NCBI GenBank assembly: GCA_040755095.1
Contig: JBFMBH010000001.1
Coordinates: forward strand, 62,001-126,000
DNA: 64,000 nucleotides
Direction of reading: 5' to 3'
Source: Thermodesulfobacteriota bacterium
GTDB taxonomy: Bacteria; Desulfobacterota; Desulfobulbia; Desulfobulbales; JBFMBH01
The translations under genes were made by a program, and so were the position numbers. Within the stretch, counting starts at the first letter, position 1, and every line of letters starts with the position of its first letter. The notes under the pieces are model-generated. The model was not told the origin of the DNA. It saw nothing but the letters and a program-made list of their open reading frames with translations, and did not search any database. This document shows positions 16,910 through 57,764 of this stretch, in pieces.

Positions 16910-17000
16910 GCCGGCATTGTGCCCGCAGGACCGGTGAGCCGGGCGTTTCTCGGTCGCGGTCGCGGCACCAGGAAGCCGGCCCATGCCTCAGGAGGAACCG

Positions 17001-17225
17001 ATGTTGACGAAGACCGTGGATGTCAAAGAGGGGCTGCCAGAGTTGAAGGGGTTGTTGTCCCTGGTGGCAGATGGCACCGAGGTCGTCCTCGTCGAGGGCG
17101 ATACGCCCATCGCGCGCCTGCTGCCCGTAACCAAGCGGGTGGCGGGCCTGCACACCGGGTCCATTTGGACCAGCGAGGATTTCGATGAGCCTCTTCCCGA
17201 TGCGTTTTGGACAGGAAGCGCATGA
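17001..17225 (+). CDS. Phd/YefM-type antitoxin
   Basis: The 74-residue protein starts MLTKTVDVKEGLPELKGLLSLV, followed by GTEVVLVEGDTPIARLLPV. This is the DNA-binding fold of Phd-type antitoxins that pair with PIN toxins. The C-terminal SEDFDEPLPDAFW segment fits a toxin-binding tail. ATG at 17001 is 6 bases after AGGAGG, so it is preferred over an ATG 18 bases earlier. The stop overlaps the toxin start by 4 bases. Confidence 0.85.
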   Translation: MLTKTVDVKEGLPELKGLLSLVADGTEVVLVEGDTPIARLLPVTKRVAGLHTGSIWTSEDFDEPLPDAFWTGSA

Positions 17226-17608
17226 AGCTCCTTTTCGACACCCACACCTTCATCTGGTGGGACAGCGAGCCACTCAAGCTGAGCGCACAAGTCCTGGGCC
17301 TGTGTGAGGATACAGGGAATACTCTGCTGGTCAGCGTGGCGAGCCTTTGGGAAATGCAGATCAAGCTCCAGCTGGGCAAGCTCAGGCTGCGCACCCCATT
17401 GGCCGATCTGGTTTCGGGCCAGCAACGCATCAACCGGGTTGAAATCCTTGACGTCAGGCTCGAGCACGTCATGGCTCTGGAAGGGCTGCCGCCTCGTCAT
17501 CGGGATCCCTTCGACCGCCTGTTGGTTGCTCAGGCACTGGTCGAGGAGGCTGTACTCCTGAGCAGGGACCCGATCTTTGCCGACTATCCAGTCCGGATCG
17601 AGTGGTAG
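17222..17608 (+). CDS. PIN-domain ribonuclease toxin
   Basis: VapC-like PIN toxins cut RNA (often tRNA or rRNA) with a cluster of acidic residues and two metal ions. The 128-residue protein has LLFDTHTFIWW with the first Asp, SVASLWEMQIK with the conserved Glu, a DPFDRLLVAQAL motif with the third acidic group, and ends near SRDPIFADYPV. This places it in the PIN_Sll0205-like group, which is usually paired with Phd-type antitoxins, as here. A related pair is at 30021-30664. Confidence 0.88.
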   Translation: MKLLFDTHTFIWWDSEPLKLSAQVLGLCEDTGNTLLVSVASLWEMQIKLQLGKLRLRTPLADLVSGQQRINRVEILDVRLEHVMALEGLPPRHRDPFDRLLVAQALVEEAVLLSRDPIFADYPVRIEW

Positions 17609-30020: not shown

Positions 30021-30275
30021 ATGATCACCCTCAATATCCACGAGGCCAAGGCCACCCTCTCTGCCTGTCTGGCCAGGGTCAGCAGCGGCGAGACAGTCAT
30101 TCTCTGCAAGCGCAACCAGCCCATCGCCGAGATTCGCCCGCTTCGCAAGAAGCTCCGGAAGAGGCGGCCCATCGGACTCGCGCGGCAGGAGTTCCCGGAT
30201 TTCACCGTCGACAAGGCCTTCTTCGAGCCGCTTCCCGAGGATCTCACCGACGCCTTTCTTGGTGAGGGCCCGTGA
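30021..30275 (+). CDS. Phd/YefM-type antitoxin
   Basis: The 84-residue protein has MITLNIHEAKATLSACLARVSSGETVILCKR and QPIAEIRPL, the DNA-binding fold of Phd antitoxins, then a basic hinge (RKKLRKRR) and an acidic C-terminal tail that would wrap the toxin. It is divergent from lexA, with 122 bases between the two starts holding both promoters. The stop overlaps the toxin's GTG start by 4 bases. Confidence 0.88.
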   Translation: MITLNIHEAKATLSACLARVSSGETVILCKRNQPIAEIRPLRKKLRKRRPIGLARQEFPDFTVDKAFFEPLPEDLTDAFLGEGP

Positions 30276-30664
30276 ACATCCTGCTGGATACGTGCACCTT
30301 CCTGTGGCTCATCGCCGACAGCCCGGAGCTTTCCGGCCCAGCTCGGGAGGTCTTTGCGGACCCGGAGAACGAGGTCTATCTGAGCGTCGCCTCCTGTTGG
30401 GAGATCGTGGTCAAGTGGTCCATGGGGAGGCTTGCCCTGCCCGAGGAGCCCGGACGATTCCTGCCCAGACAGCGGCACCAGCATGAAATCGAGCCGCTGG
30501 CCCTGGTCGAAGAGGCCACCTGGCATCTCCCCAAGCTGCCGCTGCTGCACAAGGATCCTTTTGACCGGATCCTCATCTGCCAGGCCATCGAGCACTCCCT
30601 GATCCTCCTGACCCCGGACCCTCTCATCACCCAGTATCCGGTGCGGACCCTCTGGCCAAGCTGA
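30272..30664 (+). CDS. PIN-domain ribonuclease toxin
   Basis: The 130-residue protein resembles the PIN toxin at 17222 in layout: LLDTCTFLWLI with the first Asp, SVASCWEIVVKW with the Glu, KDPFDRILICQAI with further acidic residues, and a TPDPLITQYPV end. It starts with GTG overlapping the antitoxin TGA, consistent with coupled translation. The two pairs in this window are related but clearly diverged, so they are not a recent duplication. Confidence 0.88.
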   Translation: MNILLDTCTFLWLIADSPELSGPAREVFADPENEVYLSVASCWEIVVKWSMGRLALPEEPGRFLPRQRHQHEIEPLALVEEATWHLPKLPLLHKDPFDRILICQAIEHSLILLTPDPLITQYPVRTLWPS

Positions 30665-35863: not shown

Positions 35864-36262
35864 ATGCCAAAGGACAAAGCCGCCCGCACCACCCCCATCC
35901 TGGTGAGCCAACAGGGCTTCACCCTCATCGAGATCATCGCCGTGCTCATCCTTCTGGGCATCCTGGCTGCCGTGGCCGTGCCCAAGTACATCGACATGTC
36001 CAACGAGGCCAAGGTCAAGGCCCTGGACGCCGGGATCTCGGAGCTGAACTCCCGGGAAAACCTGGCCTGGGGCCGGTACAAGCTGACCTCGCCGGCGACC
36101 TGGGCCGACGCCACCCTCCTGGGCACGTACATGGACACCGACCTGGGATCGGAATACGCCTGGTCCGGGAACAATGTCTCCTTCCAGAGCGGCACCGCCA
36201 AGGCCTTCACCCGCACCGCCTCCACCGAGACCACGCCGGGCAACTGGACCCGCGCCCAGTGA
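35864..36262 (+). CDS. Type IV pilin (first of two)
   Basis: The 132-residue prepilin has an 18-residue basic leader ending in Gly, then FTLIEIIAVLILLGILAAVA with Glu5 of the mature protein, the N-terminal helix of type IV pilins. A prepilin peptidase would cut after Gly and methylate Phe1. The mature protein of about 114 residues is short. Two short shared blocks, SRENL and WSGNNVSF, recur in the second pilin. There are no cysteines, so it lacks the usual disulfide loop. It stands behind a sigma-54 promoter. Confidence 0.92.
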   Translation: MPKDKAARTTPILVSQQGFTLIEIIAVLILLGILAAVAVPKYIDMSNEAKVKALDAGISELNSRENLAWGRYKLTSPATWADATLLGTYMDTDLGSEYAWSGNNVSFQSGTAKAFTRTASTETTPGNWTRAQ

Positions 36263-42692: not shown

Positions 42693-44519
42693 ATGGATTC
42701 CGTCATGCCCAAGCCTGCCGCCCAGCCCCGGCACGATCTTCGCCAGCAGCCCCACGCCACCGACCCTCCCGGCCATGGCCTGCCCTCTCCCAAGGAGATC
42801 GAGCGGGACCTGGAGCAATACCTGTCCAAAAAGTATGGGGAGCGGGTCAAGGTGATGTCCCAGATCCTGACCCCGCAGCCCCAGCGGCCCGACGAGCCGG
42901 AAGCAGGACCGGCCACCGGGCCCGGCCTGCTGCGGGACTTCGCCCTCAAGCCCGAGGAGCTGGTGGCCTATCTCGACGAATATGTGGTCCGCCAGGACGA
43001 GGCCAAGGCGATCCTGGCCACCAAGATCTGCACCCATTTCAACCGCCTCCGCCGGGCGCTCGCCGACCCGAAGCGGGCCGGCCGGGAGCGGGGCCGCATC
43101 AAGAGCAATGTGCTGCTCATCGGCCCTACCGGCGTCGGCAAGACCTTTCTCATCAAGCTCATCGCCGACAAGCTGGGGGTGCCCTTCGTCAAGGGCGACG
43201 CCACCAAATTCAGCGAGACCGGCTACGTGGGCGGGGATGTGGAGGATCTGGTCCGGGAGCTGGTGGAGCGGGCGGGCGGTGACCTGGAGGCGGCCCAGCA
43301 CGGCATCATCTACATCGACGAGATCGACAAGATCGCGGCCAGCCGCAACCTCATCGGCCCGGATGTCTCCCGCACCGGGGTCCAGCGCGCCCTGCTGAAG
43401 CCCATGGAGGAGACCGAGGTGGACTTGCGGGTGCCCCATGATCCCATCGCCCAGCTGGAGGCCCTGGAGCGGTACCGGGCCACCGGCAAGCGGGAAAGGC
43501 GCACCGTCAACACCCGGGACATCCTCTTCATCATGAGCGGCGCCTTCGCCGACCTGGACGACATCATCCGCAAGCGGCTGGGCAGCCAAGCCATCGGCTT
43601 TGCCAGCCCCATGCGAGCCCGGCGGGAGCAGCCGGACCTCTGCCGGGAGGTCCGGGCGGAGGATCTCCACGCCTATGGCTTTGAAAGCGAGTTCATCGGC
43701 CGCCTGCCGGTGATCGCCGTCTTTGATCCCTTGAGCGAAGGCGATCTGTTCGTTATTCTCAAGAATCCCAACAGCTCGGTGGTGGCCAGCAAGAAGCAGG
43801 ATTTCCTGGCCTACGGGATCCGGCTGCTGTTCGAGGACGAGGCCCTCCAGGAACTGGCCCGGCGGGCCCAGGCGGAGGGCACCGGCGCCCGGGGGCTGGT
43901 GCGGGTGGTGGAATCGGTGCTGCTGCCCTTCGAAAAGCGCCTGCCGTCCACCGACATCCGCTTTCTGGTGGCGAGCGCCGCCCTGGTGTACGCCCCCCAG
44001 GCTCAGCTGCAGGCGCTGCTTGGGGATCCGGCGGTCCGCACCGGCCACGAGCGCCGCTACCAGGAGCTTCTGGCCAGCCAGCGCCAGGAGCTGGTCGCCT
44101 TTCTCCGGGAGCGCTCCGGCCCCTATCTGGAATCCCAGGGCCTGCCGCTTTCGGCGCCGCGGCTGGAGCTGATGGCCGCCCGCTGCCAGGAGGACCTGCT
44201 GGACACCCGGGCGGTCTGCGACCGGTGGCTGGAGCTGGCCCGGGCGGTCCACGACTGCGAGCCGGCCATCACCGAGCGCTGCGGCATGCAGGTCGTCTTT
44301 GGCGAGGATGCCGTGGACGCCATCCTCGCCACCTGGCCCCAGGGGCCGGAGGAGATCCAGGCCCTGGTTACCCGGCTGGGCCAGGCCTACGAATACGGCC
44401 TGCGGCTCATCAGCCACAAGAAGGGCTGGCCCCGGATCGTCATCCCGGCGGCCGGGGTCACCGAGCCGGCGGCCTTCATCAACGAGCTGGTGGATCGGAC
44501 CTTCCACACCCAGGACTGA
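42693..44519 (+). CDS. ClpX-like AAA+ ATPase without the zinc-binding domain
   Basis: The 608-residue protein has a HslU/ClpX-type AAA+ core: GPTGVGKTFLIKLIA, SETGYVGGDVEDLVREL, IIYIDEIDKIA, SGAFADLDDII, SEFIGRLPVIAVFDPLSE. It keeps an IGF motif (QAIGFASP) like the loop ClpX uses to dock on ClpP, but lacks the N-terminal zinc finger, which is replaced by a charged, Pro-rich segment. Residues after about 440 are an extra domain I do not recognise. It may be an alternative unfoldase. The start may be at 42693 or 42705 (the latter has GGATTC upstream). It follows the NtrX-like gene by 5 bases. Confidence 0.75.
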   Translation: MDSVMPKPAAQPRHDLRQQPHATDPPGHGLPSPKEIERDLEQYLSKKYGERVKVMSQILTPQPQRPDEPEAGPATGPGLLRDFALKPEELVAYLDEYVVRQDEAKAILATKICTHFNRLRRALADPKRAGRERGRIKSNVLLIGPTGVGKTFLIKLIADKLGVPFVKGDATKFSETGYVGGDVEDLVRELVERAGGDLEAAQHGIIYIDEIDKIAASRNLIGPDVSRTGVQRALLKPMEETEVDLRVPHDPIAQLEALERYRATGKRERRTVNTRDILFIMSGAFADLDDIIRKRLGSQAIGFASPMRARREQPDLCREVRAEDLHAYGFESEFIGRLPVIAVFDPLSEGDLFVILKNPNSSVVASKKQDFLAYGIRLLFEDEALQELARRAQAEGTGARGLVRVVESVLLPFEKRLPSTDIRFLVASAALVYAPQAQLQALLGDPAVRTGHERRYQELLASQRQELVAFLRERSGPYLESQGLPLSAPRLELMAARCQEDLLDTRAVCDRWLELARAVHDCEPAITERCGMQVVFGEDAVDAILATWPQGPEEIQALVTRLGQAYEYGLRLISHKKGWPRIVIPAAGVTEPAAFINELVDRTFHTQD

Positions 44520-44587: not shown

Positions 44588-44603
44588 AAACGAATAAGCG
44601 TTT
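44588..44603. promoter_or_regulatory. Inverted repeat upstream of the six-haem cytochrome gene
   Basis: AAACG-N6-CGTTT (44588-44603) lies in the AT-rich patch before the cytochrome gene. A TATACT (44634-44639) follows but lacks a well-placed -35. It could be an operator; support is weak. Confidence 0.35.
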
Positions 44604-44691
44604 GCAGTATGGAGCTCCTGTCCGAGGCCGTGCTATACTGACCCCAGGCCGGTCTGTGTATGCGGCAAGGCCTTCAGACAGCGAAGCCACG

Positions 44692-45828
44692 GTGAATGAC
44701 GTGCTGATCCGAAGAAGCGTATTGTTGGCAGGTCTTTTGGCTCTCGGCATCGCGGCTCCGACCAGCGCCCGGGTCACGGGCTTTCTGTGCAGCAACTGCC
44801 ATACCATGCACAACAGCCAGGACGGCGGGCCAGTGGTCCGGACCGGGCTGGGCGCCGGCTGGGACAGCGGCACCCTGGACGGCGGCCTGCCGGGCGACCC
44901 CCAGGCGTCTCTGCTCCGGACCGATTGCGTCGGCTGCCACACCAGCGCCGGCACCGACACCATCGTCACGGTGGGCGGCTCCCGCATCCCCATCGTCTAC
45001 AACCTGATGGCGCCGGTGGACCCGCTGGCCGGCGGCAATTTCTACTGGGTGGCCCACGATGGGGACAGCCGCGGCCATAACGTCCGCGGCATCTCCAACG
45101 CGGACGGGACCCTGGCCGTGGCGCCGGGCGCCATCGGCTGCTCCAGCAGCTGCCACACCTCCCTGGCCCTCACCGATGCCCAGACCTATGGCCAGCGCCG
45201 CAACGGCTGCCAGGGCTGCCACAACAGCGTCAGACACCATGGCCAGGACGACGCCGGGGTGCCGGTCACGGCAGACGGTGGCTGGTACCGCTTCCTGAGC
45301 GCCCCCTCCGGCCACGACATGCTGGGCGGCGCCGGGGTCAACGGCATCGAGGACCCGGACTGGGAGCAGCAGCCCACCGCCAACGCCCACAACCATTATT
45401 ACAGCGGCACCGGTGCCGACAACGACACCCCCCAGTCCATCGGCAAGTTCTGCGCCGGCTGCCACTACAACTTCCACTCCCCGGGCTTCTCCACCACCTT
45501 CATGGGCACCGACAACGGCGGCGGCAGCAACCCCTGGCTGCGGCATCCGTCGGATGTGGTCATCCCCAACGAATACGAGTTCCAGGCCTTCACCGTCTAC
45601 GATCCCCAGGTGCCGGTGGCTCGGCCCGAGGCCAGCCTGACCGGTTTCGATCCTGCCACCGTCCGTCCCGGCACCGACCGGGTCACCTGCATCTCGTGCC
45701 ACCGCGCCCACGGCAGCCCGTACAACGACATGCTGCGCTGGGACCGCACCACCATCACCACCGGCGCCACCGGCGCGGCGGCCGGCACCGGCTGCTTCCG
45801 CTGCCACACCAGCAAGGACGGCCAGTAG
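44692..45828 (+). CDS. Secreted multiheme c-type cytochrome (six canonical CXXCH motifs)
   Basis: The 378-residue protein has a signal peptide (RRSVLLAGLLALGIAAPTSA) and six CXXCH motifs (CSNCH, CVGCH, CQGCH, CAGCH, CISCH, CFRCH) that would each bind a covalent haem. A seventh site at 45139-45156 reads CSSSCH (three residues between the cysteines), which may be an atypical haem site. Between motifs the protein is Gly- and His-rich; no catalytic domain is recognised. It is probably an electron carrier in the periplasm or at the surface. GTG at 44692 is used; an in-frame GTG at 44701 is also possible. It is the first gene of the electron-transfer cluster. Confidence 0.88.
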   Translation: MNDVLIRRSVLLAGLLALGIAAPTSARVTGFLCSNCHTMHNSQDGGPVVRTGLGAGWDSGTLDGGLPGDPQASLLRTDCVGCHTSAGTDTIVTVGGSRIPIVYNLMAPVDPLAGGNFYWVAHDGDSRGHNVRGISNADGTLAVAPGAIGCSSSCHTSLALTDAQTYGQRRNGCQGCHNSVRHHGQDDAGVPVTADGGWYRFLSAPSGHDMLGGAGVNGIEDPDWEQQPTANAHNHYYSGTGADNDTPQSIGKFCAGCHYNFHSPGFSTTFMGTDNGGGSNPWLRHPSDVVIPNEYEFQAFTVYDPQVPVARPEASLTGFDPATVRPGTDRVTCISCHRAHGSPYNDMLRWDRTTITTGATGAAAGTGCFRCHTSKDGQ

Positions 45829-46466
45829 GCGGCAAGGCCCCGGAGGGCCCCGCGCGACCCGGCAGGGGTCCGACCCGCCGGCGGCCCTCCCGCACCGGCC
45901 AGACCTCCCCCCCGGAGGCCGTGGCCGGCCGCTTTCGTACCGCCCCCCCGACCGCAGACCTCTCCTGACGCTGCTGAGCCTCTTCCCCGCCCTCTCTTTC
46001 CGGCCCTGACCTGGCGCCGCCGCTCCCGAGGCCGGCCGTCTGCTACCGCGCCGCCTGGATGTGAAGCTGGTCCACATTACCCCCTTCTTCGCCATAGACC
46101 TGCGACTGGCCTTATCCTGCCATTTTTCCTACCATAATTGATCGCCAACGGACGCCTTTCCCAGCCGCGCCCCCGGCCGTCCCCGGTGGCCGACGCCCCG
46201 CGTCGTTACGGTGAAGCGGGATTCAGCCATCAAGCCGGCGGCCTGCTGCCCCCGGTGCTTATCCTCTGTTTAGCTGTGAATAAACCTTCACCATATAGAG
46301 ACCGGCTTTGCCGTCATGTTAGACTGATCGTGGGATCGCTTGCCGGTCAGCGAGGCGGCCCCGCGCCCTGCCCGGTCCCGGCCGGCCGGCTGCCGCTCGG
46401 CTCGGGCACCTCGGTCCACGACGGCCGGATGCTGAGCCGGGGCACGGCCCGCCCATGGAGTCAGTC
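45829..46466. other. 638-base intergenic region before the NHL gene
   Basis: GC drops in two patches, near 46060-46145 and 46255-46330. The second holds a GTGAA-N6-TTCAC dyad and a TATAGA (see separate entry). I see no coding frame with support and no RNA gene. The first 200 bases after the cytochrome stop are GC-rich with no clear terminator. Confidence 0.5.
46276..46299 (+). promoter_or_regulatory. Dyad and -10-like element upstream of the NHL gene
   Basis: GTGAA-N6-TTCAC (46276-46291) lies directly before TATAGA (46294-46299). Both outer half-sites are identical to those of the LexA operator at 29911, but the inner C and G are changed. No good -35 is visible. Confidence 0.35.
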
Positions 46467-48863
46467 ATGAGAACCTTCCCCATCCGCATGCTCCCCCTGG
46501 CCGCTGTCCTGCTTCTGGGCTTGGCGGCATCGTCCCAGGCCGGCACCCTGGCCGGCGACTATCCTCGCCTGGCCTCGATCCGTACCGGCAAGATCACGGC
46601 CATGGCCCTGGACGGCGCGGAGCAGCTCTGCCTGCTGGAGGCGGGGGGAAGCCGTCTTCTGGTCACAAGCCGGCAGGGCCGGGTGCAGGCCAGCCTGGCC
46701 GGACTGGCCGACCCGATCAGCCTGGCGGCCGACCGCCAGGGCCGCTGGTACGTAGGCAGCGCCGAGACCGGCTCGGTGGAGGTGCTCGGCCCCACCCTGC
46801 GGCAACCCTTTGCCCTGGGTCAAGGCGCCGGGGAATTCGGGCGGCCGAGCGCCATTGCCGTGAGCCGGGCCGGCACCGTGTACGTGGCCGACAGCAAGGA
46901 GCAGCAGATCAAGGTCTTCGACCCCGCCGGCCGGCGGCTGTTCGCCTTCGGCTCCCCGGGCAGCGGCAACGGCTCCTTCCACTTCCCCACAGCCCTGGCC
47001 ATCGACGAGGCAGCCGGCGAGGTGGTGGTGACCGACCTGCCCATCATCACCTCGCCCCGGGGCCCCCACGAGGGCGCCCGGGTGCAGTTCTTCACCCTGG
47101 ACGGCGGCTATCGGCGCAGCTTCGGCACTTACGGCACCGGCGCCGGCCTGCTCATGAAGCCCCTGGGCGTGGCGGTGGATGCCGCCGGCCGGGTGCTGGT
47201 CAGCGATGCCCAGCAGGGGGTGGTGCAGGTGTTCGACCGTCAAGGCGCCTTCATCGGCACCCTGTACGACCCCGAGCATCCCTTGCGCACCCCCCTGGCA
47301 GTGGCGGTTGGCCCGGCCAGCGGCCAGCTCTTCGTCGCCTCCCTGAACAGCGGCACCGTGGAGGTCTACGGCCCGTCGCCGGAGCCGATCGTCCATGTCC
47401 TGGCCTCGGCCGGCGGCCGTGTCACCCCCTCCGGCGACATCCCGGTGCCCTTCGGCCAGGATCTCTCCCTGACCCTGGCCCCGGACCCGGGCCATCACGT
47501 GACCCAGCTGCTGGTGGACGGGAGCGACGCCGGCGCCCGGACCGCCTACACCCTGGCTGCGGTCACCGCGGACCATACCGTCGAGGCGCGCTTCGGCCGG
47601 GACAGCTTTGCCATCGCGGCTTCAGCCGCGGCGGGCGGCCGGATCGCGCCGGCGGGGCAGGTGCCGGCGCTTTTTGGCGACAGCCCCGTCTTTGCCATCA
47701 CCGCCGATCCGGGCTTCGAGATCGCCGACCTCCTGGTGGATGGCATCTCGGTGGGTGCCACCGGCACCTATACCTTCACCCGGGTGACGGCCAGCCATAC
47801 CATCCGCGCCCTGTTCCGGCCGGTGGCAGTGACCCGGACCTTCGAGGTGGCGGTGGCGGTGGCCGGCGCCGGCGTCGTCGAGGCCAGCGGCATCCGCTGC
47901 CCGGGCGACTGCACCGAGACCTGTGCCGGCGGCACCGAGCTGGTGCTGGTGGCCGCTGCCGCGCCGGAGCAGGTGTTTGCCGGCTGGGGGGGGGATTGCG
48001 CCGGCACCGGCCTGGAATGCCGCCTCACGGCGGACAGCCCCAAGACCGTCACCGCCCGCTTCGTGCCGGCCGCCGACCTGGACACCTTCGAGGCCGAGGG
48101 CCCGTCCAGCCTGCCGTGGCTTACCGGCGGCGACAGCCCCTGGACGCGGCAGGCCGTGGCGAGCCATTCCGGCACCATGGCCATGGCGGCCCCGACCCTG
48201 GCTCCGGGCCAGATGAGCTTCCTCGAGGTGCCACTTGCGACCACGACGGCCGGCGAGGTGACCTTCTGGTCCAGGATCGTGGCCGAGCCAGGGATGAGCG
48301 CCCTGCGCTTCCTGGTGGACAACGTCGAGCTGGGCCGCTGGTCCGCCGGCCAGGATTGGACCGACGCCGGCTTCAACATCCCCGCCGGCAGGCACGTCTT
48401 CCGCTGGGAGTATCTGCAGGCAGAAGGCCAGGGCTTCGACGGCCTGTGGCTGGACGATGTCATCTTCCCGGCCCACCTGCCGCCGGCGTGGCCGCTCCCC
48501 GACCTCAAGGTCAACCATGGCGATGGCCCTCTGCTCCTGGGGGCGGGCGGCCAAGCCCTGGTGAGCGTGGCGGTGGCGGCAGGCCCGCAGGCCGGCAGCC
48601 CCAGCACCGGGTACCTGGCCCTCAAGGGTGGCAAGAGGCTGTTCTTCCTCGATGGCGCCACCGGCCTCTGGCAACTGCGACCCGCAGCGCTGGCGGCAGC
48701 GCCTCTGGCCGAAGACAGCTTCACCCACACCCGGGTGGCAGACCTGGGCGGCTTGCCCGCCGGGCTCTACACCCTCTATTACGTCACCGATGTGGCGCCG
48801 CCCGGGGCGGCGAGCCACCTGATCGCCGCCGATCAGGCAGTGATCCAGGTACGCCGGCGCTGA
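46467..48863 (+). CDS. Secreted NHL-repeat propeller protein with InlB-like repeats
   Basis: The 798-residue protein has a signal peptide (residues 1-25, ending SQA), then about six NHL-type blades up to residue 305 (for example GRPSAIAVSRAGTVYVADSKEQQIKVFD), forming a likely beta-propeller. About three divergent InlB-type repeats follow (VTPSGDIPVPFGQDLSLTL ... HTVEARF; IAPAGQVPALFGDSP ... HTIRALF; a Cys-containing third). The C-terminal 260 residues contain a jelly-roll-like segment. No haem motif is present. NHL proteins often sit beside multiheme cytochromes in metal-reducing bacteria. It may scaffold or anchor the cytochromes. ATG at 46467 has GGAG seven bases upstream; ATG 46455 is an alternative. 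Confidence 0.8.
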   Translation: MRTFPIRMLPLAAVLLLGLAASSQAGTLAGDYPRLASIRTGKITAMALDGAEQLCLLEAGGSRLLVTSRQGRVQASLAGLADPISLAADRQGRWYVGSAETGSVEVLGPTLRQPFALGQGAGEFGRPSAIAVSRAGTVYVADSKEQQIKVFDPAGRRLFAFGSPGSGNGSFHFPTALAIDEAAGEVVVTDLPIITSPRGPHEGARVQFFTLDGGYRRSFGTYGTGAGLLMKPLGVAVDAAGRVLVSDAQQGVVQVFDRQGAFIGTLYDPEHPLRTPLAVAVGPASGQLFVASLNSGTVEVYGPSPEPIVHVLASAGGRVTPSGDIPVPFGQDLSLTLAPDPGHHVTQLLVDGSDAGARTAYTLAAVTADHTVEARFGRDSFAIAASAAAGGRIAPAGQVPALFGDSPVFAITADPGFEIADLLVDGISVGATGTYTFTRVTASHTIRALFRPVAVTRTFEVAVAVAGAGVVEASGIRCPGDCTETCAGGTELVLVAAAAPEQVFAGWGGDCAGTGLECRLTADSPKTVTARFVPAADLDTFEAEGPSSLPWLTGGDSPWTRQAVASHSGTMAMAAPTLAPGQMSFLEVPLATTTAGEVTFWSRIVAEPGMSALRFLVDNVELGRWSAGQDWTDAGFNIPAGRHVFRWEYLQAEGQGFDGLWLDDVIFPAHLPPAWPLPDLKVNHGDGPLLLGAGGQALVSVAVAAGPQAGSPSTGYLALKGGKRLFFLDGATGLWQLRPAALAAAPLAEDSFTHTRVADLGGLPAGLYTLYYVTDVAPPGAASHLIAADQAVIQVRRR

Positions 48864-48919: not shown

Positions 48920-51900
48920 ATGGGCACGAAGGCAGGCATGAAGACGACCATGCGCACAAAGGCGGCCCTGGCGGCCCTTTTCTTCGGGCTGGTCCTGGCT
49001 GCGCCGGCGGCGCTGGCGGACCAGCTCGGTATCGACTACCCCCATTACCAGCCGTCGGGGGTGGGCTGCGACTCCTGCCACTACATCGCGGAGGAGCCGC
49101 CGGCCTGGGTCTCCCACGTGGCCCAGGACATCGACGACACGCCGTCCAACAACCTGTGCTGGAGCTGCCACAACGACGTGCGCGCCCAGTTTGTGGAGCC
49201 CCATTCGGCGCTGACCACCAGCACCCGCTATGGCACCACCTGGTCGGTGGAATGCCGGACCTGCCACTGGCCGCACCACCAGCTGCAGCCGCGGACATAC
49301 GGCGCGGCCAGCCACGTGGCTGCCGGCAGCTCCACCGCCCTCACCGCCAATAGCCTGAGCCTTGCCGGCGCCGGCTGGATCCCGAACAGCTTTGCCGGCT
49401 ATCTCCTCATCCCCAACACCAGTCAGCTCAGCTACAGCTACCGGATCACCACGAGCACCAGCGACACGGTCTGGGTCGAGCCGGCCATGGACCTGAGCAA
49501 GGCCGCGGTGGGCAACCCCTTTGCCATCGTCTACGGCAAGCTGGTGAAGAACAGCCTTGCCACGCCCAACAGCGGCACGAAGACCGTGCGGCTCTTCCGG
49601 CGGGAAGGGCCCAACTCCTTTGCCGACGGCGATGCCACCTACGACGGCGTCTGCGAGGTCTGCCACACCCAGCCCAGCCACTTCCGCAACAACGGCGCCG
49701 CCCCGGACCAGCTGCACAACAACCTCAACGGCTGGCAGGGGGGCAACTGCATCCTGTGCCACACCCATGCCAACGGCTTCGGTCATGGCCCGGATGGCGG
49801 CGGCACCGCCTGTGCCGACTGCCACGGCAAGGACCAGGACCAGGGCGGCAAGGGCTCCTTTCAGAGCCACTCCACCCACACCGAGACCGACGCCGACGAC
49901 CTCAAGGGCGCTGGCGGTCTCCTTTGCAACGCCTGCCACGACACCACCGACTATCCCTTCTTCAAATCCGGCACCGACATAAGCGGCGACGGCCGCCTCA
50001 GCCTGGCGGAAACGGACGTCTGCGACACCTGCCACAGCCCGGGCGGCGCCTACGATGGCGTGAACGCCCCGGCCTCCGGCGCCAAGGCCAACTGGAAGAA
50101 CGGGATCTATGCCGGCCTGGGCCTGCGGCCGGGCAAGGAGACGTGGTGTCTGGGCTGCCACGATGACCTGCCAGCCAACAGCCGGCAGGACGGCTCCGGC
50201 ATCGTTGCGCCCAACAAGGCGGGGGATGGCCTCACCTACGGCTATTTCCTGACCGGCCATGGCCGCACGACCCCCTTCAACGCCACCCTGCATGGCCAGA
50301 ACGGGCCGGGCTATGCCTGCGCCGTCTGCCATGAGACGACCGCAAGCCATCTCAACCACACCGCCGGTGACCGGCGGCTGATGGCGGTGCCCGGCGACGG
50401 CCTTGCCTCCACCTCGGCGGCCACCGAAGTCTGCCAGGACTGCCACCAGGTCGGCCAGAGCGCCAACGGCGCCCTGGGCTTTGACGCCAGCGCCGAGGCG
50501 ACGATCCATTCCGGCGCCATCACCGGCAAGTACAACACCAACGCTGCCGCCGCCTTCCCGGCCTACGGCAACAGCGCCGACTACGCCACCAGCCCCGGCT
50601 ACCAGTGCGAGGACTGCCACGATGTCCACGGCACCGGCAAGCTGGCCATGCTGCTGCCGGTCATCGACGGCCGCCTGGCCGGCGCCAGCAATCCGGTGGC
50701 GATCACCGGCCTCGGCTCCGCGGACAGCGATCTTCTTGATCTCGACCCCGCGGCAGGGCCGGACAACGGCGTCTGCGACGCCTGCCACCAGGCGGGCAAC
50801 GATCCCCATCCGGACACCAGCCATGCCGGCAACCACTACCAGGGCGAAACCGGCAACGCCTGCATGGCCTGCCACACCCACACCCGCTCCTTTGCCCATG
50901 GCGGCGGCGCCGGCATGAGCTGCGGCACCGCCAACTCCTGCCACGGCACCTTCGACTCGCACCCCACCCACGTCAAGGACAGCGCCATGGTGCTGGTGGA
51001 CTGCGATGCCTGCCACAACACCGGCAGCTTCCCGACCTTCGCCGACGGCCAGACCCTGGCCGGCACCTCGGTCTGCGCCGGCTGCCACGGCGGTGGCTCG
51101 GCCCTGGCCAAGACCTACTGGCAAAGCCCCGGCTCCGAGGCCATGGCTGCCGGCAGCTGGCTGGCGGTGGAGGGGGATGCCAACTACTGCGGCACCTGCC
51201 ACGGCGGCAACGAGAGCGCCGACCACAACAACCTCAATGCCTCGGCGGGCTGCAGCAGCTGCCACCAACCCCTGGGCACCAAGGTCGAGATGCTGGCTCT
51301 CCACAATGGCGCCGCCTGCTCCACCTGCCACCTCTCGGCGGACGTGGCGGTCACCGCCACCATCAGCACCGGCAAGTCCGGCGGCGGCAACACAGCGGTC
51401 CAGTGCACCTCCTGCCACACCGGGCCGGGGGGCAATGCCATGCATGGCCTGGCCACCATCGATGCCGAGCTGCAGGCGCGGCACAACATGCTGTCCGTGT
51501 CCGCCAATGCCGGCAGCGATCCGGCCGACTGCGCCATCTGCCACACCATGGGCTCGGCCCAGGCGAGGCTGGACCTTCATCCCGGCTGTCTGGCCTGCCA
51601 CACCAGCGCCGATCCGGATGTGGTGGCGGCGATCAGCGGCGGCATCGCTGGCAGCACGATCAACTGCGAGACCTGCCACGACGCCCAGGGTGAAAACCGA
51701 CTCCACGGCCTGACCATTGCCGCGGTGGCCGGCGACCACACCGGCTTCGGCACCAGCCATACCGGCGAGAGCGCCTGCGGCAACTGCCATCTCATGGCCA
51801 CGGCCAGCGACAGCCTGGATCTGCACCCCGCCTGCTCCAGCTGCCACACCACCCATGCCACGGATGCCACGCTCCGGACCGCGGTGGTGAACGACGGCCG

Positions 51901-54900
51901 GGAGCCGGGACATCAGGTGGGCGGCGGCAACGGCAATGCCCAGGACTGCGAGTCCTGCCACAGCACCCTCGGCCAGTACCGGCTGCACGGTCTGACCGTG
52001 GCCGACGTGGCCGGCGACCACACCGCCTTCACCACCAGCCACAGCGCGGAGAAGGCCTGCAGCAACTGCCACACCATGGCCTCGTCCAGCCAGAGCCTGG
52101 ATCTGCACCCCAGCTGCACCACCTGCCACACCACCCATGCCACCGACGGCTCGGGCCGCACCACGGCCATCAACAACGGCCGCGAGGCCGGCCACCACGT
52201 GGGCGGCGGCAACAACGTCACCCAGAGCTGCGAATCCTGCCACAGCGCCAAGGGCACCTATTCCCTGCACGGCCTCACGGACGACAACGGTGCCGACGGC
52301 GTGGCCGATGCCCACGACCAGCTGGTCACCTCCCAGGGCGCCTGGGTGTCCACCGGCAACCAGGTGCCGGCCTACCGCAAGGCCGACTACAGCGGCAAGA
52401 TCAAGTACGGCGTCTACGGCGGCCTGCTCGCTCCGGACTACAACTGCGCCGACTGCCATGCCGCGGACCGCGCCACCATCACCACCCTGGAAGCGGTGCA
52501 GCTCCACACCAGAGCCAACGGCACCGGCTTCGGTGACTGCCGGACCTGCCACACCGCAAGCGGCATCAGAAACGAGGTGGACAACGGCCGCGAGCCCGGC
52601 CACCACATCGGTGGCGGCGGCAACCAGGCCGTCAGCTGCGAGACCTGCCACCAGGCGGCCTACGACGCTGCCAGCCCCAGCGGCCAGAAGATGTACCAGT
52701 ACGACGGCGTGCGGCACCACACCACCGCCTACGCGCAGGCCGGCGACTGCACCTATTGCCATGCCGACCCGCGGCCGGCCACCCCCACCCAGGCCACCGG
52801 CTATGCCGCCACCGCCGACACGGTGGGCACCTCCAGCACCGGCTGGAATACCGACTACGCCCTGGGCTATGCCGACGCCAACGTCCCGAAACAGCCTGCC
52901 TGCCGTCTGTGCCATACCAATGCCATGACGTATTCCGTGAACGTGGACGGTGGCAATGGCAACCATGGATTCAACATCGGTGGGCCGACCAATGGTCTCA
53001 CCGTGTATGCCAATGACTTCAACGCCACCACAACAAGCTTCATCAACACGTCCACCCGACCCGTAAACGCCACGAAGATGACCCAGACCGGGTTGGCCTC
53101 GCACCGCATCGCGGCCAACGACGGCGCAACGCTGATCCAGGTTGAGAACATGGGTGCCTGTTTCACGTGCCATTCGGTGCAGATCATGCACGCAGCCCCA
53201 AAACCAGGCGCCGACTACCCTGCCCCTGGCTGTGGGCAATATGCGCCCCTGGACAGTCTGCGCTACGCGCCTGGCCGGTCGGTTTTCAACCTCCTCAAAG
53301 GAAGCGCCACCGGCAACACCACGTCGTGGGACGATCATCGCTATTCCAGCAACAGCCTGCAGCCCTATGACCCGTGCTCGGACACCAACAGCACACGAAC
53401 GCGGGCCAAGAATTACCTGAAGAACAACAACGGAAATGACTGGCAATGGGGCGATGTCGCGGGTGATTCACTGCTGGGCGTCCCTGCCTCCAGCTCCTTC
53501 TCCAATTTCGAAGGGCTGAGTGGCATGCCGACCAATGGCGCGACGTACAACGTTCCGGTGTTCGCCAACATCGCGGCACCGGCCATCCCCGACAACATCC
53601 ACATCACCAGGGCCTACTACCAAGCCGGCGCCCTGACCGTAGAGGCCTACAGTGAGAAGGGGGCGGGCCAGACGCTCTCCTTCACCTACACCGGCGGCGG
53701 CTGCAACGGCACGGCCATGACCTGGAACGGCAGCTTCTACGCCGGCACCTGCAACAGCCCCAGCGGCTGGACCGAAGGGGTGGATACCGTAACGGCCAGC
53801 AACACCGCCACCGCCAGCCCGCTGGACGTGGAGACCCGCCTGGTGACCGGCTTCAAGGCCGCGGCAGCGGTAGCTGACAGCCTCACCGCCTGGTCGGGCC
53901 TCACCACCAGCCTGGCTCCCCTGGCCAACGATACCGGCACCGGCATCTACCTCTTGGCCATCGATGCCGCCGGCCTCAACGCCAACTGCACGGCGGAGAT
54001 GAGCGGCAACCAGGTGGCCCTCACCTGCGGCGCCGCCACCGGCGCCATGGGCAGCTTCGGCTACACCATCAAGGACGCCGGCGGCGGCCAGTCCTCGGCC
54101 ACGATCACCGTCACCGCGGCGGTGAACTCCGCCCCGACACTGGCCATCGCCGAGCCGGACGGGGTCAACGACCAGGTGTTCGCCGGCGACCTTTATCCCA
54201 TTACGTACACCCTGGACGATCCCGACGAGACGGTGACCGTGGCCTTCTACCGGGACAACGACCATGCCGGGGAGAACGGCACTGCCCTCCCCGGTGCCTG
54301 CGCCGCGGCAGCCGAGGGCAGCGGGGTCACCTGCGCCTGGGACACCACCGGCCTGGCACCCGGCACCTACTATGTCTACGGCCAGGTGAGCGACGGCTAC
54401 CACCCGGCGGTGAGCGCTTACTCGGCCGGGGCACTTACGGTGGTGGCGCCGGTGAGCGTGGCCGGTCCGGCCTCGGCCCTGGCCACCGCCGGCGGCGGCA
54501 CCAACACCGCCACGGCCAGCTATGCGGCGGCAGCGGGCAGCAACCGGATCGTGCTCATCGCTGTGGCCTGGGAGGACACCACCTCCAGCTACGACACCAA
54601 CGAGACAGTGACCAGCGGCACTTACGGCGGCCAGGCCATCAGCCAGGTGGCCGTGACCCGCTCCAGCGACGGCAGGCAGGGGGTGTGGGTGGGCTATGTC
54701 ACTGCCGCCAAGCTGGCGGCCAAGAGCGGGGATGCCATCAGCCTCAGCTTCGACGGCGACGGCAACAACCCCAACGTGGCTGCCATCACCGCCATGACCC
54801 TGGCCAACGCCAGTCAGGCAGCGCCGGCGGCGGTGACTGCCAACGGCACCAGCGGCACCGCCCTGGCCTGGTCGGGCCTGGCGGTGAATGCCGGCGGCTA

Positions 54901-56101
54901 CGCGGTCTACCTGGCCAACGCCGACGGTGCGGTCACCTTCGACCCGCCTCCGCCCGGTGGCAGCAACGACTTCACCGAGCGCTTCGACACCCAGATCGGC
55001 AGCCAGTTCCAGCTCACCGCCGGCGACAAGGCGATCACGTCCACCGGCACCTCCGCGGAGACGGTCACCAGCTCTTTGTCCGGCCGCTGGGCCCTTACAG
55101 CGGTGGCGGTGCAGTCCAACGCCAACTTCGCGCCCAGCCTGGCCATAAGCCAGCCGGACGGGGCCGGCGATGCCGTTTATCCGGGCAGCTCCTACAACAT
55201 CACCTACTCCCTGGAGGACGGCGAGGATGTGGTGACCGCCGCCTTCTCTTACGACGTGGACAACACCGGCCTCGATGGGGTCGCCATCACCGGTGCCTGC
55301 GCCACCGCCGCCGAGGGCACCGATGCCACCTGCGCCTGGGACACCACCGGCCTGGCACCCGGGACGTACTATGTCTACGGCGCCAGCGACGACGGCATCA
55401 ATCCGGCGGTGAGCGCGTACTCCCCCGGTCCCATCACCATCAACCCCTGCCCGGCGGTGGCGGTGCTGGACACCTGGACCTCGGTCTACGGCGGCACCGC
55501 CAGCTCGCCCTCCGGCACCAAGACCGTCTCCGCCGGCAGCGACTCCAACCGGCTGCTGCTGGTGGCGGTGTTGAACGAATACACGGGCAATGTCACGAAC
55601 TCCTGGACCGTCACCTACGGCGGCCAGACACTGACCCAGGTGGCCACGGTCAACAACGGCTACAGCAACATGTGGCTGGGCTATCTCAAGGAGAGCGGCC
55701 TCGACGCTGCCACCAGCACCACGGTCAGCGTGACCATGACCGGCAACAAATCGTACAGCCGGGTCTACGCCATGGTGCTGGACGGGGTGAGCCAGACCAC
55801 CCCGGTGGCTTCTCCCAGCGGCGTTTACAACTCCAACTCCTCCGGCACCCAGGTGGCCACCGGCAACATCACCTGGACCGCCAACGACCGGGTGGTCTAT
55901 GCCGCCAACTCCACCAGCACCAGCGCCGGCCACGGCCAGCCCGGCACTTACACCGAGGCAGTGGAGAATCTGTCCACCCTGGGCGGCTCCGCCGGCTACC
56001 GGACCGCGGTCACCGGCGGCGGCACCGAGGCCGTCACCGTCACCCACGCCAGCGGCCGCTCCGCCATCATCGGCGTGGCGGTGAAGGGGGCGTGCAACTG
56101 A
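48920..56101 (+). CDS. Giant multiheme c-type cytochrome with adhesin-like C-terminus
   Basis: This 2,393-residue protein has a signal peptide (AALAALFFGLVLAAPAALA) and, between about residues 50 and 1420, 35 CXXCH motifs by my count, one per ~39 residues, plus one CX5CH site. Part of this region is a tandem repeat of 94 residues. Residues 1420-1735 are non-haem, and the last 660 residues form two copies of a 333-residue unit, each with a domain starting APxLAI-PDG and containing CAWDTTGLAPGTYYVYG, then a beta-rich domain. These look like cell-surface beta-sandwich modules. No membrane anchor or sorting motif is seen at the end. Such a protein could wire electrons over tens of nanometres outside the cell; that role is inferred. 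Start at ATG 48920; ATG 48938 is also possible. Confidence 0.9.
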   Translation: MGTKAGMKTTMRTKAALAALFFGLVLAAPAALADQLGIDYPHYQPSGVGCDSCHYIAEEPPAWVSHVAQDIDDTPSNNLCWSCHNDVRAQFVEPHSALTTSTRYGTTWSVECRTCHWPHHQLQPRTYGAASHVAAGSSTALTANSLSLAGAGWIPNSFAGYLLIPNTSQLSYSYRITTSTSDTVWVEPAMDLSKAAVGNPFAIVYGKLVKNSLATPNSGTKTVRLFRREGPNSFADGDATYDGVCEVCHTQPSHFRNNGAAPDQLHNNLNGWQGGNCILCHTHANGFGHGPDGGGTACADCHGKDQDQGGKGSFQSHSTHTETDADDLKGAGGLLCNACHDTTDYPFFKSGTDISGDGRLSLAETDVCDTCHSPGGAYDGVNAPASGAKANWKNGIYAGLGLRPGKETWCLGCHDDLPANSRQDGSGIVAPNKAGDGLTYGYFLTGHGRTTPFNATLHGQNGPGYACAVCHETTASHLNHTAGDRRLMAVPGDGLASTSAATEVCQDCHQVGQSANGALGFDASAEATIHSGAITGKYNTNAAAAFPAYGNSADYATSPGYQCEDCHDVHGTGKLAMLLPVIDGRLAGASNPVAITGLGSADSDLLDLDPAAGPDNGVCDACHQAGNDPHPDTSHAGNHYQGETGNACMACHTHTRSFAHGGGAGMSCGTANSCHGTFDSHPTHVKDSAMVLVDCDACHNTGSFPTFADGQTLAGTSVCAGCHGGGSALAKTYWQSPGSEAMAAGSWLAVEGDANYCGTCHGGNESADHNNLNASAGCSSCHQPLGTKVEMLALHNGAACSTCHLSADVAVTATISTGKSGGGNTAVQCTSCHTGPGGNAMHGLATIDAELQARHNMLSVSANAGSDPADCAICHTMGSAQARLDLHPGCLACHTSADPDVVAAISGGIAGSTINCETCHDAQGENRLHGLTIAAVAGDHTGFGTSHTGESACGNCHLMATASDSLDLHPACSSCHTTHATDATLRTAVVNDGREPGHQVGGGNGNAQDCESCHSTLGQYRLHGLTVADVAGDHTAFTTSHSAEKACSNCHTMASSSQSLDLHPSCTTCHTTHATDGSGRTTAINNGREAGHHVGGGNNVTQSCESCHSAKGTYSLHGLTDDNGADGVADAHDQLVTSQGAWVSTGNQVPAYRKADYSGKIKYGVYGGLLAPDYNCADCHAADRATITTLEAVQLHTRANGTGFGDCRTCHTASGIRNEVDNGREPGHHIGGGGNQAVSCETCHQAAYDAASPSGQKMYQYDGVRHHTTAYAQAGDCTYCHADPRPATPTQATGYAATADTVGTSSTGWNTDYALGYADANVPKQPACRLCHTNAMTYSVNVDGGNGNHGFNIGGPTNGLTVYANDFNATTTSFINTSTRPVNATKMTQTGLASHRIAANDGATLIQVENMGACFTCHSVQIMHAAPKPGADYPAPGCGQYAPLDSLRYAPGRSVFNLLKGSATGNTTSWDDHRYSSNSLQPYDPCSDTNSTRTRAKNYLKNNNGNDWQWGDVAGDSLLGVPASSSFSNFEGLSGMPTNGATYNVPVFANIAAPAIPDNIHITRAYYQAGALTVEAYSEKGAGQTLSFTYTGGGCNGTAMTWNGSFYAGTCNSPSGWTEGVDTVTASNTATASPLDVETRLVTGFKAAAAVADSLTAWSGLTTSLAPLANDTGTGIYLLAIDAAGLNANCTAEMSGNQVALTCGAATGAMGSFGYTIKDAGGGQSSATITVTAAVNSAPTLAIAEPDGVNDQVFAGDLYPITYTLDDPDETVTVAFYRDNDHAGENGTALPGACAAAAEGSGVTCAWDTTGLAPGTYYVYGQVSDGYHPAVSAYSAGALTVVAPVSVAGPASALATAGGGTNTATASYAAAAGSNRIVLIAVAWEDTTSSYDTNETVTSGTYGGQAISQVAVTRSSDGRQGVWVGYVTAAKLAAKSGDAISLSFDGDGNNPNVAAITAMTLANASQAAPAAVTANGTSGTALAWSGLAVNAGGYAVYLANADGAVTFDPPPPGGSNDFTERFDTQIGSQFQLTAGDKAITSTGTSAETVTSSLSGRWALTAVAVQSNANFAPSLAISQPDGAGDAVYPGSSYNITYSLEDGEDVVTAAFSYDVDNTGLDGVAITGACATAAEGTDATCAWDTTGLAPGTYYVYGASDDGINPAVSAYSPGPITINPCPAVAVLDTWTSVYGGTASSPSGTKTVSAGSDSNRLLLVAVLNEYTGNVTNSWTVTYGGQTLTQVATVNNGYSNMWLGYLKESGLDAATSTTVSVTMTGNKSYSRVYAMVLDGVSQTTPVASPSGVYNSNSSGTQVATGNITWTANDRVVYAANSTSTSAGHGQPGTYTEAVENLSTLGGSAGYRTAVTGGGTEAVTVTHASGRSAIIGVAVKGACN
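51440..52264 (+). repeat. Tandem haem-repeat array inside the giant cytochrome
   Basis: Two consecutive 282-base units (51701-51982 and 51983-52264) encode 94-residue repeats that begin HGLT, continue AVAGDHT or DVAGDHT, and carry four haem motifs each (one CxNCH, one CxxCHTTHATD pair and CESCH-type). A diverged 261-base unit precedes at 51440 and a partial copy starts at 52265. The repetition is at protein and DNA level, suggesting growth by unequal duplication. Confidence 0.8.
54125..56101 (+). repeat. Duplicated 333-codon unit in the giant cytochrome C-terminus
   Basis: The unit at 54125-55123 recurs at 55124-56101. The two share PDG near the start, CAWDTTGLAPGTYYVYG about 75 residues in, an SAYS segment, and a following beta-rich domain with YGGQ. 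Neither carries haem motifs. Confidence 0.75.
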
Positions 56102-56141: not shown

Positions 56142-56184
56142 CCACAACCAAGGCCCCGCCATCCCGGTGGGGCCTTGGTCGTGG
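56142..56184 (+). terminator. Long hairpin after the giant cytochrome
   Basis: A 16-bp stem (56142-56157 with 56169-56184; core CCAAGGCCCC/GGGGCCTTGG, one G-T wobble) closes an 11-base loop 40 bases after the stop. There is no U-tract, so it may be a bidirectional or attenuating structure. Confidence 0.65.
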
Positions 56185-56305
56185 TGGCGACAGCCCCTTG
56201 CCAAAGGCCGTGAAGGAAGCCAAGATCAGAAGAACGCCGCCGGGGCTGCCACCTGGGTGCTCCGGCGAGATCCCCGGCCCAGGTGGCGGCTCGATGCCGC
56301 CGGCA

Positions 56306-56477
56306 GGTGCCGCTGCTGTCAGGGCTGGCGCCGGCATCGCCGGGGGATGAATCCCCCGGCTACCGTTTCTGCTCTCGCTTCGCGAGGCTTGGGTGCCGCT
56401 GCTGTCAGGGCTGGCGCCGGCATCGCCGGGGGATGAATCCCCCGGCTACCGTTTCTGCTCTCGCTTCGCGAGGCTTG
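56306..56477. repeat. 86-bp tandem duplication with two hairpins per unit
   Basis: The 86-base sequence at 56306-56391 is repeated directly at 56392-56477 with, as far as I can read, no difference. Each copy contains GCCGGGGGA-TGAA-TCCCCCGGC (9-bp perfect stem) and CTCGC-TTC-GCGAG. Two palindromes per unit recall REP/BIME elements. It lies in the 451-base gap before the OmpA-domain gene. Confidence 0.85.
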
Positions 56478-56552
56478 CAGGAAGGGAGCTTCTTGGAGAG
56501 CCCCGCCAGAGCGGACAACCGGCCGGGGAGACGCCCAGGCGCAGGTGACCGT

Positions 56553-57764
56553 ATGCTCCGTTTTCTTCTGTGCTCCATCCTGGCGCTGGTGCCGGTGATC
56601 GCCCATGGCGCGGCGCCGGGCTTCTTGTTGAAGAAGGCAGGCACCCTGTCCGGCCAGGTCTTCGTGGACAACGCGCCGCTGGCCAACGCTGTCGTCGCCT
56701 TCTTCCTGGAGGCCAAAGGGCTGCCGCCGGTCCATCCCGGCATGACCCGGGTGCCGGAGGCCCTGGGTCGCCTGGACGGGGACGGCCGCTTTGCCGTCCG
56801 GCTGGCCCCGGGCAGCTATTACCTGGGCATGCTGCAGCGGGATCCGGCGGCAGGACCGGGGCCGCCCCGGCCGGGAGAGGCGTTCTATTTCGCAGCCGAT
56901 CCGGAAAGGGCGACGCTGCGGGTCTTCACCCTGGCCCGGCAGGAGACCCTGGACCTGGGCCGGATCGACGGCCTGCCGCCGGAGCGCCTTGCCGGTGTCC
57001 CGGCGCCGGCGGTCTTCACCGCCCGCGGCCGGCTGCTGGATGGCCAGGGCCAGCCGGTGGCAGGGGCGGTGGTGCTGGCCAAGCGGCATCTCGATGTACC
57101 CCGGCCGGATGTGGCCTCGGCCCGCACCGGCGCGGACGGCGCCTTCACCCTGGCCCTGCCGGCGGAGACGCCCTTCTTCCTGGTGGCCCGGGAGACCATG
57201 GCTGGCGGCCGGCCGCAGCCGGGGCAGCTGGTCGGCACCTATGGCATCCGTTCCGAGACCGGGTTCTTCCCGGCGATGTTTGGCGGGGAGGCCGGCGACG
57301 GCCAGGGGCTGAGCGCCGGCACCCGGCCGCAGACCGTGGCCGGCGCGGCCGGCGAGACGCGGCCGGATCTGGAGATCGTCATGTACCCGGTACCGGATCC
57401 GGCGGCCATCAAGGCCTCCCTGCAGGGCGCCTTCACCGGCCCCGCCAGCGAGGCGGCACCGGATCTGGGGCCCATCCCCTTCGCTGTTGGCGGGGACCGT
57501 TTGGACGAGGGAGGGGCGGCGATCCTCGACCGCTGGGCCGGTCTTCTGAGTGCCCGGGCGACGACGCAGGTGGAGGTCCGGGGCTATGCTGACGACGCCG
57601 GGGCGGCGGTCGCCAATGAGGAGCTGGCCAGGCAGCGCGCCCGGCAGGTGGCCGACTATCTGGCGGGCAAAGGGATTGCCCGGGAACGGCTCACCGTCCT
57701 GGGCGTGGCGGGCGGCGGCCGGCGGGTGGAGATCCGGGCCAAGGCCCGGGAGGAGGAGCGATGA
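56553..57764 (+). CDS. Secreted carboxypeptidase-regulatory-like / OmpA-domain protein
   Basis: The 403-residue protein has a signal peptide (MLRFLLCSILALVPVIAHG), then two beta-sandwich segments of the carboxypeptidase-regulatory type (LSGQVFVDNAPLANAVVAFF; ARGRLLDGQGQPVAGAVVLAKR). Its C-terminal 90 residues form an OmpA-like domain (FAVGGDRLDEGG, VEVRGYADDAGAAVANEELARQRARQVADYL) that would bind peptidoglycan. It would sit in the periplasm, tied to the wall. Its position after the giant cytochrome suggests a scaffold or tether. The stop overlaps the next gene by 4 bases. Confidence 0.8.
   Translation: MLRFLLCSILALVPVIAHGAAPGFLLKKAGTLSGQVFVDNAPLANAVVAFFLEAKGLPPVHPGMTRVPEALGRLDGDGRFAVRLAPGSYYLGMLQRDPAAGPGPPRPGEAFYFAADPERATLRVFTLARQETLDLGRIDGLPPERLAGVPAPAVFTARGRLLDGQGQPVAGAVVLAKRHLDVPRPDVASARTGADGAFTLALPAETPFFLVARETMAGGRPQPGQLVGTYGIRSETGFFPAMFGGEAGDGQGLSAGTRPQTVAGAAGETRPDLEIVMYPVPDPAAIKASLQGAFTGPASEAAPDLGPIPFAVGGDRLDEGGAAILDRWAGLLSARATTQVEVRGYADDAGAAVANEELARQRARQVADYLAGKGIARERLTVLGVAGGGRRVEIRAKAREEER

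Follow-up and report, generated by a model that had tools for sequence, protein, structure and literature searches.

Several very large multihaem cytochromes c have been described, some of them joined to domains of a surface type. Cytochromes with up to 86 haem motifs are reported from Desulfuromonas acetexigens in the main text of PMC12133095, where they are expressed on electrodes and iron oxides. The Oet cluster of syntrophic sulfate reducers encodes 26-haem and 16-haem cytochromes, a six-bladed β-propeller and a peptidyl-prolyl isomerase (PMC5539420, PMC10553843). An Oet-type operon is also reported for Desulfurivibrio (PMC5539420), and oetF carries fibronectin domains, for which the authors suggest a possible contact with the matrix or a partner (PMC10553843). 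In Geoalkalibacter ferrihydriticus, two fibronectin III domains are part of a 24-haem cytochrome encoded beside a 38-haem cytochrome (PMC12016550), and the ANME giants MHC-A/B/C hold 20-80 haems and are fused to S-layer, peptidase M6-like and pectin-lyase type domains (PMC9012536). With fibronectin, S-layer and pectin-lyase domains among the published giants, a giant cytochrome that bears surface domains is thus already a known kind.

The locus presented here lies in a 64,000 nt stretch of DNA (the window) from a Thermodesulfobacteriota bacterium of the order Desulfobulbales, probably a sediment dweller, and its central gene encodes a giant cytochrome with 35 CXXCH motifs and a long haem-free tail. 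By description, its haem number is comparable to those of the Geobacter high-haem outer-membrane cytochromes OmcN, OmcO, OmcP and OmcV. The D. acetexigens giants, also compared by description only, are likewise very large, many-haem proteins of Desulfobacterota, but they have more haems and no adhesin-like tail is described for them in the main text (PMC12133095). The Oet cluster resembles the window locus, again by description only, in having a large cytochrome beside a β-propeller gene. The window locus combines a propeller with 6-haem and predicted 36-haem cytochromes, whereas an isomerase and a 16-haem gene were not found among the annotated window neighbours. The Geoalkalibacter 24-haem protein shares a multihaem chain with Ig/FN3-type domains, but is half the length and has only two such domains, which are N-terminal (PMC12016550). 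The ANME giants also combine a giant cytochrome with surface domains (PMC9012536); compared by description, they differ in being archaeal and S-layer or membrane anchored, with other domains in another order.

The decahaem, four-domain cytochromes MtrC and OmcA differ from the window protein with its 35 motifs, and no MtrB-type porin or MtrA is present among the annotated neighbours. A search of the bacterium's own genome for an MtrB/PioB porin gave no match, and the control search was likewise empty. In contrast to the OmcS, OmcE and OmcZ nanowires, the window protein has no sequence match to solved filaments, and the whole protein has none to any PDB chain. A profile of its conserved N-terminal part, the head, matches other multihaem chains of solved structure weakly (best E 1e-5).

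The gene frame and its haem motifs

The gene and the parts of its haem-bearing region are as follows.

48920..56101, + strand: giant multihaem cytochrome c, 2,393 codons and stop; 35 CXXCH and 1 CX5CH; apoprotein ~240 kDa
48938..49018, + strand: likely Sec signal peptide MKTTMRTKAALAALFFGLVLAAPAALA, by eye from the translation; without a lipobox
49019..50389, + strand: conserved N-terminal haem head, residues 34-490, 10 CXXCH (alignment of 21 members; Pfam)
49289..49633, + strand: haem-free β insert in the head, between haems 3 and 4 (133-residue inter-motif gap)
50633..51202, + strand: partial second head copy, residues 572-761, with the CX5CH site (self match)
50921..50944, + strand: CX5CH motif CGTANSCH, residues 668-675, probable 36th haem site (alignment, motif counts)
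51663..51944, + strand: three-haem 94-residue repeat, copy 1 (self-comparison)
51945..52226, + strand: three-haem 94-residue repeat, copy 2 (self-comparison with copy 1)
52229..53194, + strand: C-terminal haem module, residues 1104-1425, 7 CXXCH (53% identical to the orthologue in genome G035)
56148..56178, + strand: 10-bp perfect inverted repeat after the stop codon, from the sequence

The sequence-only reading had counted 35 CXXCH motifs by eye, and a script count of the frame gives the same number; 1,000 shuffles give a mean of 0.14 and a maximum of 2. With haem, the mass would be ~260 kDa. The signal peptide is a typical Sec sequence ending at AALA/DQLG, as judged by eye. Counted in the longer frame, this signal extends to residue 33, and a start at 48938 or 48950 is therefore more likely than one at 48920. 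Inspection of the protein by eye revealed neither a lipobox nor a membrane helix, nor any outer-surface sorting signal of a known type. The inverted repeat past the stop codon is a possible operon end, a reading that is weakened by the lack of a T run.

A frameshift that divides the frame, listed in the sequence-only reading among the outcomes that would refute it, is not indicated. GC3 is 0.79-0.94 along the entire frame, and this uniformity from end to end indicates that the haem part and the tail are coding in one frame. Another family of the order has an orthologue in which the frame is likewise unbroken and the tail layout is the same (genome G035, contig 64; 2,191 aa, 29 CXXCH). Thus the window frame is not an assembly artefact.

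The single CX5CH that had been noted by eye was located by script as CGTANSCH. In the alignment it falls where other head copies carry CXXCH, and the heads of paralogues have either CX5CH or CXXCH at the equivalent site. Counts across the whole set of family frames are 11 for CX3CH, 16 for CX4CH and 15 for CX5CH, against 1 for CX6CH and 2 for CX7CH; CX8CH to CX15CH are absent, CXXCH sites aside. This step, from spacings of three to five that are common to longer ones that are nearly absent, makes the CX5CH a likely haem-binding site, the 36th in the protein; the giant cytochrome should thus hold about 36 haems. The haem part has 53 non-motif histidines, enough to provide second ligands for all 36 sites.

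Haem motifs are mostly spaced 19-58 residues apart. Pfam matches above cut-offs are to Cytochrome_C7 (3e-37) and MtrC/MtrF domain II/IV (6e-25). The second head copy has 30% identity to the head in self-comparison (E 2.5e-14), and residues 749-1110 are built from related repeats. The two adjacent 94-residue repeats, with 77% identity in DNA and 65% in protein, indicate that the haem number grew through tandem duplication. Matches to the C-terminal haem module are weak throughout, with the exception of the G035 orthologue. Structure modeling of residues 34-1233 with AlphaFold, run without haems, gave a mean pLDDT of 37, as expected in their absence, and the β insert of the head, which is all-strand with a core pLDDT of about 80-94, is the only confident section. 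A fold search with this model found no match below E 0.04.

The haem-free tail

Downstream of the haem part, the protein continues into a tail with the following features.

53174..56098, + strand: tail of 975 residues without haem; almost entirely strands in the modelled parts
53861..54115, + strand: Big_9 bacterial Ig domain, residues 1648-1732 (Pfam PF17963, above cut-off)
54125..55123, + strand: tail unit 1, Ig-like and second β domain, 333 residues (DNA repeat, alignment, model)
55124..56098, + strand: tail unit 2, Ig-like and second β domain (DNA repeat, alignment; pLDDT mostly 70-90)

The final CXXCH is at residue 1414 and is followed by 975 residues without CXXCH, in agreement with the approximately 970 residues first estimated. 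The duplication of a 333-residue unit also holds: DNA copies are found in register at 54125/55124 and 54284/55283, i.e., 999 bp or 333 residues apart, and the two protein copies are 39% identical over 333 aligned columns. The order within the tail is a poorly modelled stretch, then Big_9, then two copies of an Ig-like domain with a second β domain. AlphaFold gives almost solely strands (mean pLDDT 57.6), with unit 2 mostly at 70-90 and the remainder weaker. The tail units are modelled as β domains, as the sequence-only reading had expected of them.

That reading termed the tail adhesin-like. The tail is indeed haem-free, all-β and of a surface type, and it shows a feature of bacterial Ig-type surface adhesins, i.e., tandem Ig-like domains (Big_9 and two repeated Ig-like units in an all-β model), but sequence comparison linked none of its units to a named adhesin. 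A tail profile gave no match to solved structures. In the fold search of the tail, long chains of Ig domains were numerous among the matches, with TM-scores no higher than about 0.1-0.2. S-layer proteins and a mastigoneme filament are found among the weak multi-domain matches; matches at this level are taken as a general all-β likeness only. No catalytic family was matched in the tail by Pfam. As to the broader claim of a large cytochrome that conducts and attaches, the gene does encode a very large, apparently secreted multihaem protein with an all-β, surface-type tail, and conduction and binding would be the roles of its two parts.

Relatives and neighbouring genes

The head, of ~460 residues, was used as a profile made from the 21-member alignment, with a threshold of E 1e-20 or better for the count across the order. 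Of the 251 genomes of the order, at least 42 carry it, and these represent 22 of the 69 genera; a few genomes from other orders of the phylum have it as well. The bacterium's own genome (4.5 Mb, 255 contigs), whose 16S gene has a single mismatch to the Desulfobulbaceae probe DSB706, encodes seven further head-bearing giant cytochromes with 12 to at least 33 CXXCH. The rarity that had been claimed for a combination of many haems with a large repeat tail was therefore overstated, as it also is in view of the published 86-haem cytochromes (PMC12133095) and fibronectin-bearing ones (PMC10553843, PMC12016550). A scan of named genomes found one relative, CALZHT010000028.1 from an uncultured Desulfobulbaceae MAG, and a search of a plasmid collection gave no match.

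Two more many-haem proteins of the same genome lack the head. One, on contig 17 (L029 560-6265), has 1,901 residues and 59 CXXCH in short haem repeats; the other, on contig 153 (L030 1-2791), has at least 32 CXXCH in 930 residues and ends at the contig edge. Another genome of the order, G007, has a 2,600-residue frame with 86 CXXCH (L073 4267-12069), the same figure as in D. acetexigens. A paralogue of apparently 5,814 residues at C1:129054 is an artefact, with residues 1730-5811 masked as N (12 kb); its real part has at least 1,729 residues and 33 CXXCH.

The complete architecture, tail included, is clear in one other genome, that of the G035 orthologue, where the C-terminal haem module is 53% and the tail 49% identical. 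The proximal part of the tail also follows the haems in genome G114. A Pfam scan of the tails of six other family members shows different domains. Right-handed β-helix and GEVED tails are found in the members on contigs 5 and 21 of the own genome and in one G013 member, and a β-helix alone in a G024 member; the contig 33 member has kelch repeats and the contig 25 member a laminin-G/concanavalin-like domain. Further members have β-helix and GEVED, or Ig-like domains with propeller and laminin-G, and Big_9/cadherin is also among the surface-type tails of the family. With a head that aligns well throughout, the pattern is thus one head with various tails. No description of such a family behind an NHL gene was found in the portion of the open-licence literature covered here. 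In the best head tree, which has moderate support, the window and G035 heads are not grouped, but a grouping of the two is still compatible with an AU test (p 0.058), and tail swapping by recombination is therefore not claimed from the head phylogeny.

Two genes upstream of the giant cytochrome are of interest.

46455..48863, + strand: NHL β-propeller with InlB-type repeats, 802 aa (Pfam NHL, Flg_new_2; signal peptide by eye)
44602..45828, + strand: six-haem cytochrome c (Pfam Paired_CXXCH_1; tblastn)

The NHL gene is directly upstream, with a gap of 57 bp to position 48920, and this close spacing suggests that the two genes are expressed jointly. A homologous NHL gene is directly upstream in all eight family loci of the own genome, near or directly upstream in 7 of the 11 loci of other genomes that have enough upstream flank, and upstream in both members checked from another order. 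It should be noted that 1.5-kb flanks are poorly informative here, as the conserved propeller part sits further upstream. Homologues of the six-haem cytochrome accompany several family loci (tblastn).

A second, like cluster lies just past the window end (C1:126608-129054; L022 6609-9055), with a six-haem cytochrome, an NHL-type gene and the 33-CXXCH giant cytochrome. Directly after the window's giant cytochrome gene, positions 56283-57764 encode a carboxypeptidase-regulatory-like and OmpA-type protein. Elsewhere in the window are a ClpX-like AAA protein of 608 residues (42693-44519), which is longer than usual and below the ClpX model cut-off, a small protein that begins like a type IV prepilin, GFTLIEIIAVLILLGILAAVAVPKY (35864-36262), and two small-gene pairs that resemble antitoxin and PIN-domain toxin modules by eye (16983-17608 and 30021-30664).

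Possible roles of the giant cytochrome

An electron-transfer role is likely for the giant cytochrome because of the spacing and number of its haems, its export signal and its family matches. Taken as a whole, the protein is probably a cytochrome for electron transfer that is secreted and then docked, through its tail, to a surface, matrix or partner. Its mosaic structure, of a 10-haem head, a partial second head, three-haem repeats, a C-terminal haem module and an Ig-like chain, may be read accordingly in terms of function. Its place of work would be the exterior or the outer face of the cell, where it would form one stretch of a path for electrons. Smaller cytochromes, e.g., the nearby six-haem protein, would deliver electrons to it, and these would move over its haems, which lie close together in the chain, to an acceptor outside the cell or, in reverse, from a donor there; tandem three-haem repeats would lengthen the wire. 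Through its tail the protein would be held on a surface, on a polymer of the matrix or on a partner cell, and its paralogues, which have tails of other kinds, may act likewise on different targets. The NHL propeller encoded upstream may be a partner specific to the cytochrome, with a part in assembly, anchoring or capping. The scheme presumes that the protein is secreted past the outer membrane, is loaded with haem and conducts; it also presumes a direction of electron flow, a role for the propeller and adhesion by the tail.

A tail that builds rather than binds should also be considered, i.e., one that serves self-assembly, secretion or docking to the NHL propeller, so that a filament or surface layer is formed. 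The NHL gene directly upstream of all own-genome members points in this direction, as do the S-layer and mastigoneme proteins among the weak fold matches. The constant presence of the propeller gene does suggest a shared assembly or anchoring partner. However, docking to the propeller predicts tails that are conserved with the head, and the tails vary while head and propeller stay the same; the TM-scores of the fold matches are also only about 0.1-0.2. Varied tails on a constant head favour targeting over a purely structural role, and we regard a building tail as somewhat doubtful.

It is a recognised idea that large cytochromes may serve to store electrons. The window protein could be an extracellular or periplasmic capacitor rather than a wire, with haems that buffer electrons when there is no acceptor and a tail that merely keeps the molecule placed or soluble. 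The very high haem number reached by tandem duplication, and the 59-haem paralogue in the same genome, would fit such a store. Yet a store has no need of varied surface-type tails, and the differing folds of the paralogue tails fit targeting better, which leaves storage an unlikely main function.

Some relatives bear β-helix or lectin-type domains of the sort seen in polysaccharide enzymes, and the haem part might then feed electrons to a catalytic tail domain at the cell surface; since the window tail has no β domains other than Ig-type ones and matches no catalytic family, this is very improbable. An assembly chimera or decayed gene, in which cytochrome and adhesin genes were joined by error in a genome of 255 contigs, is hardly credible when the same fusion is found in an independent genome, 49-53% identical from haem module through tail, and GC3 is uniform along the frame.

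The reading as a secreted electron-transfer cytochrome with a docking tail can be extended, tentatively, to the family. The giants may form a plug-in system, in which a conserved head behind its own propeller gene is fitted with exchangeable binding tails. One genome would then make at least eight giants, each with a target of its own among minerals, polymers and partner cells, and the window gene would be the Ig-tailed member.

The giant cytochrome is a specific example, open to testing, of a single polypeptide that would join electron wiring to attachment. With a head that is shared and tails that differ, tail swaps could show whether the non-haem part selects electron partners or minerals. 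Such a choice of partner by the non-haem part bears on direct electron exchange in sediments and bioelectrodes.
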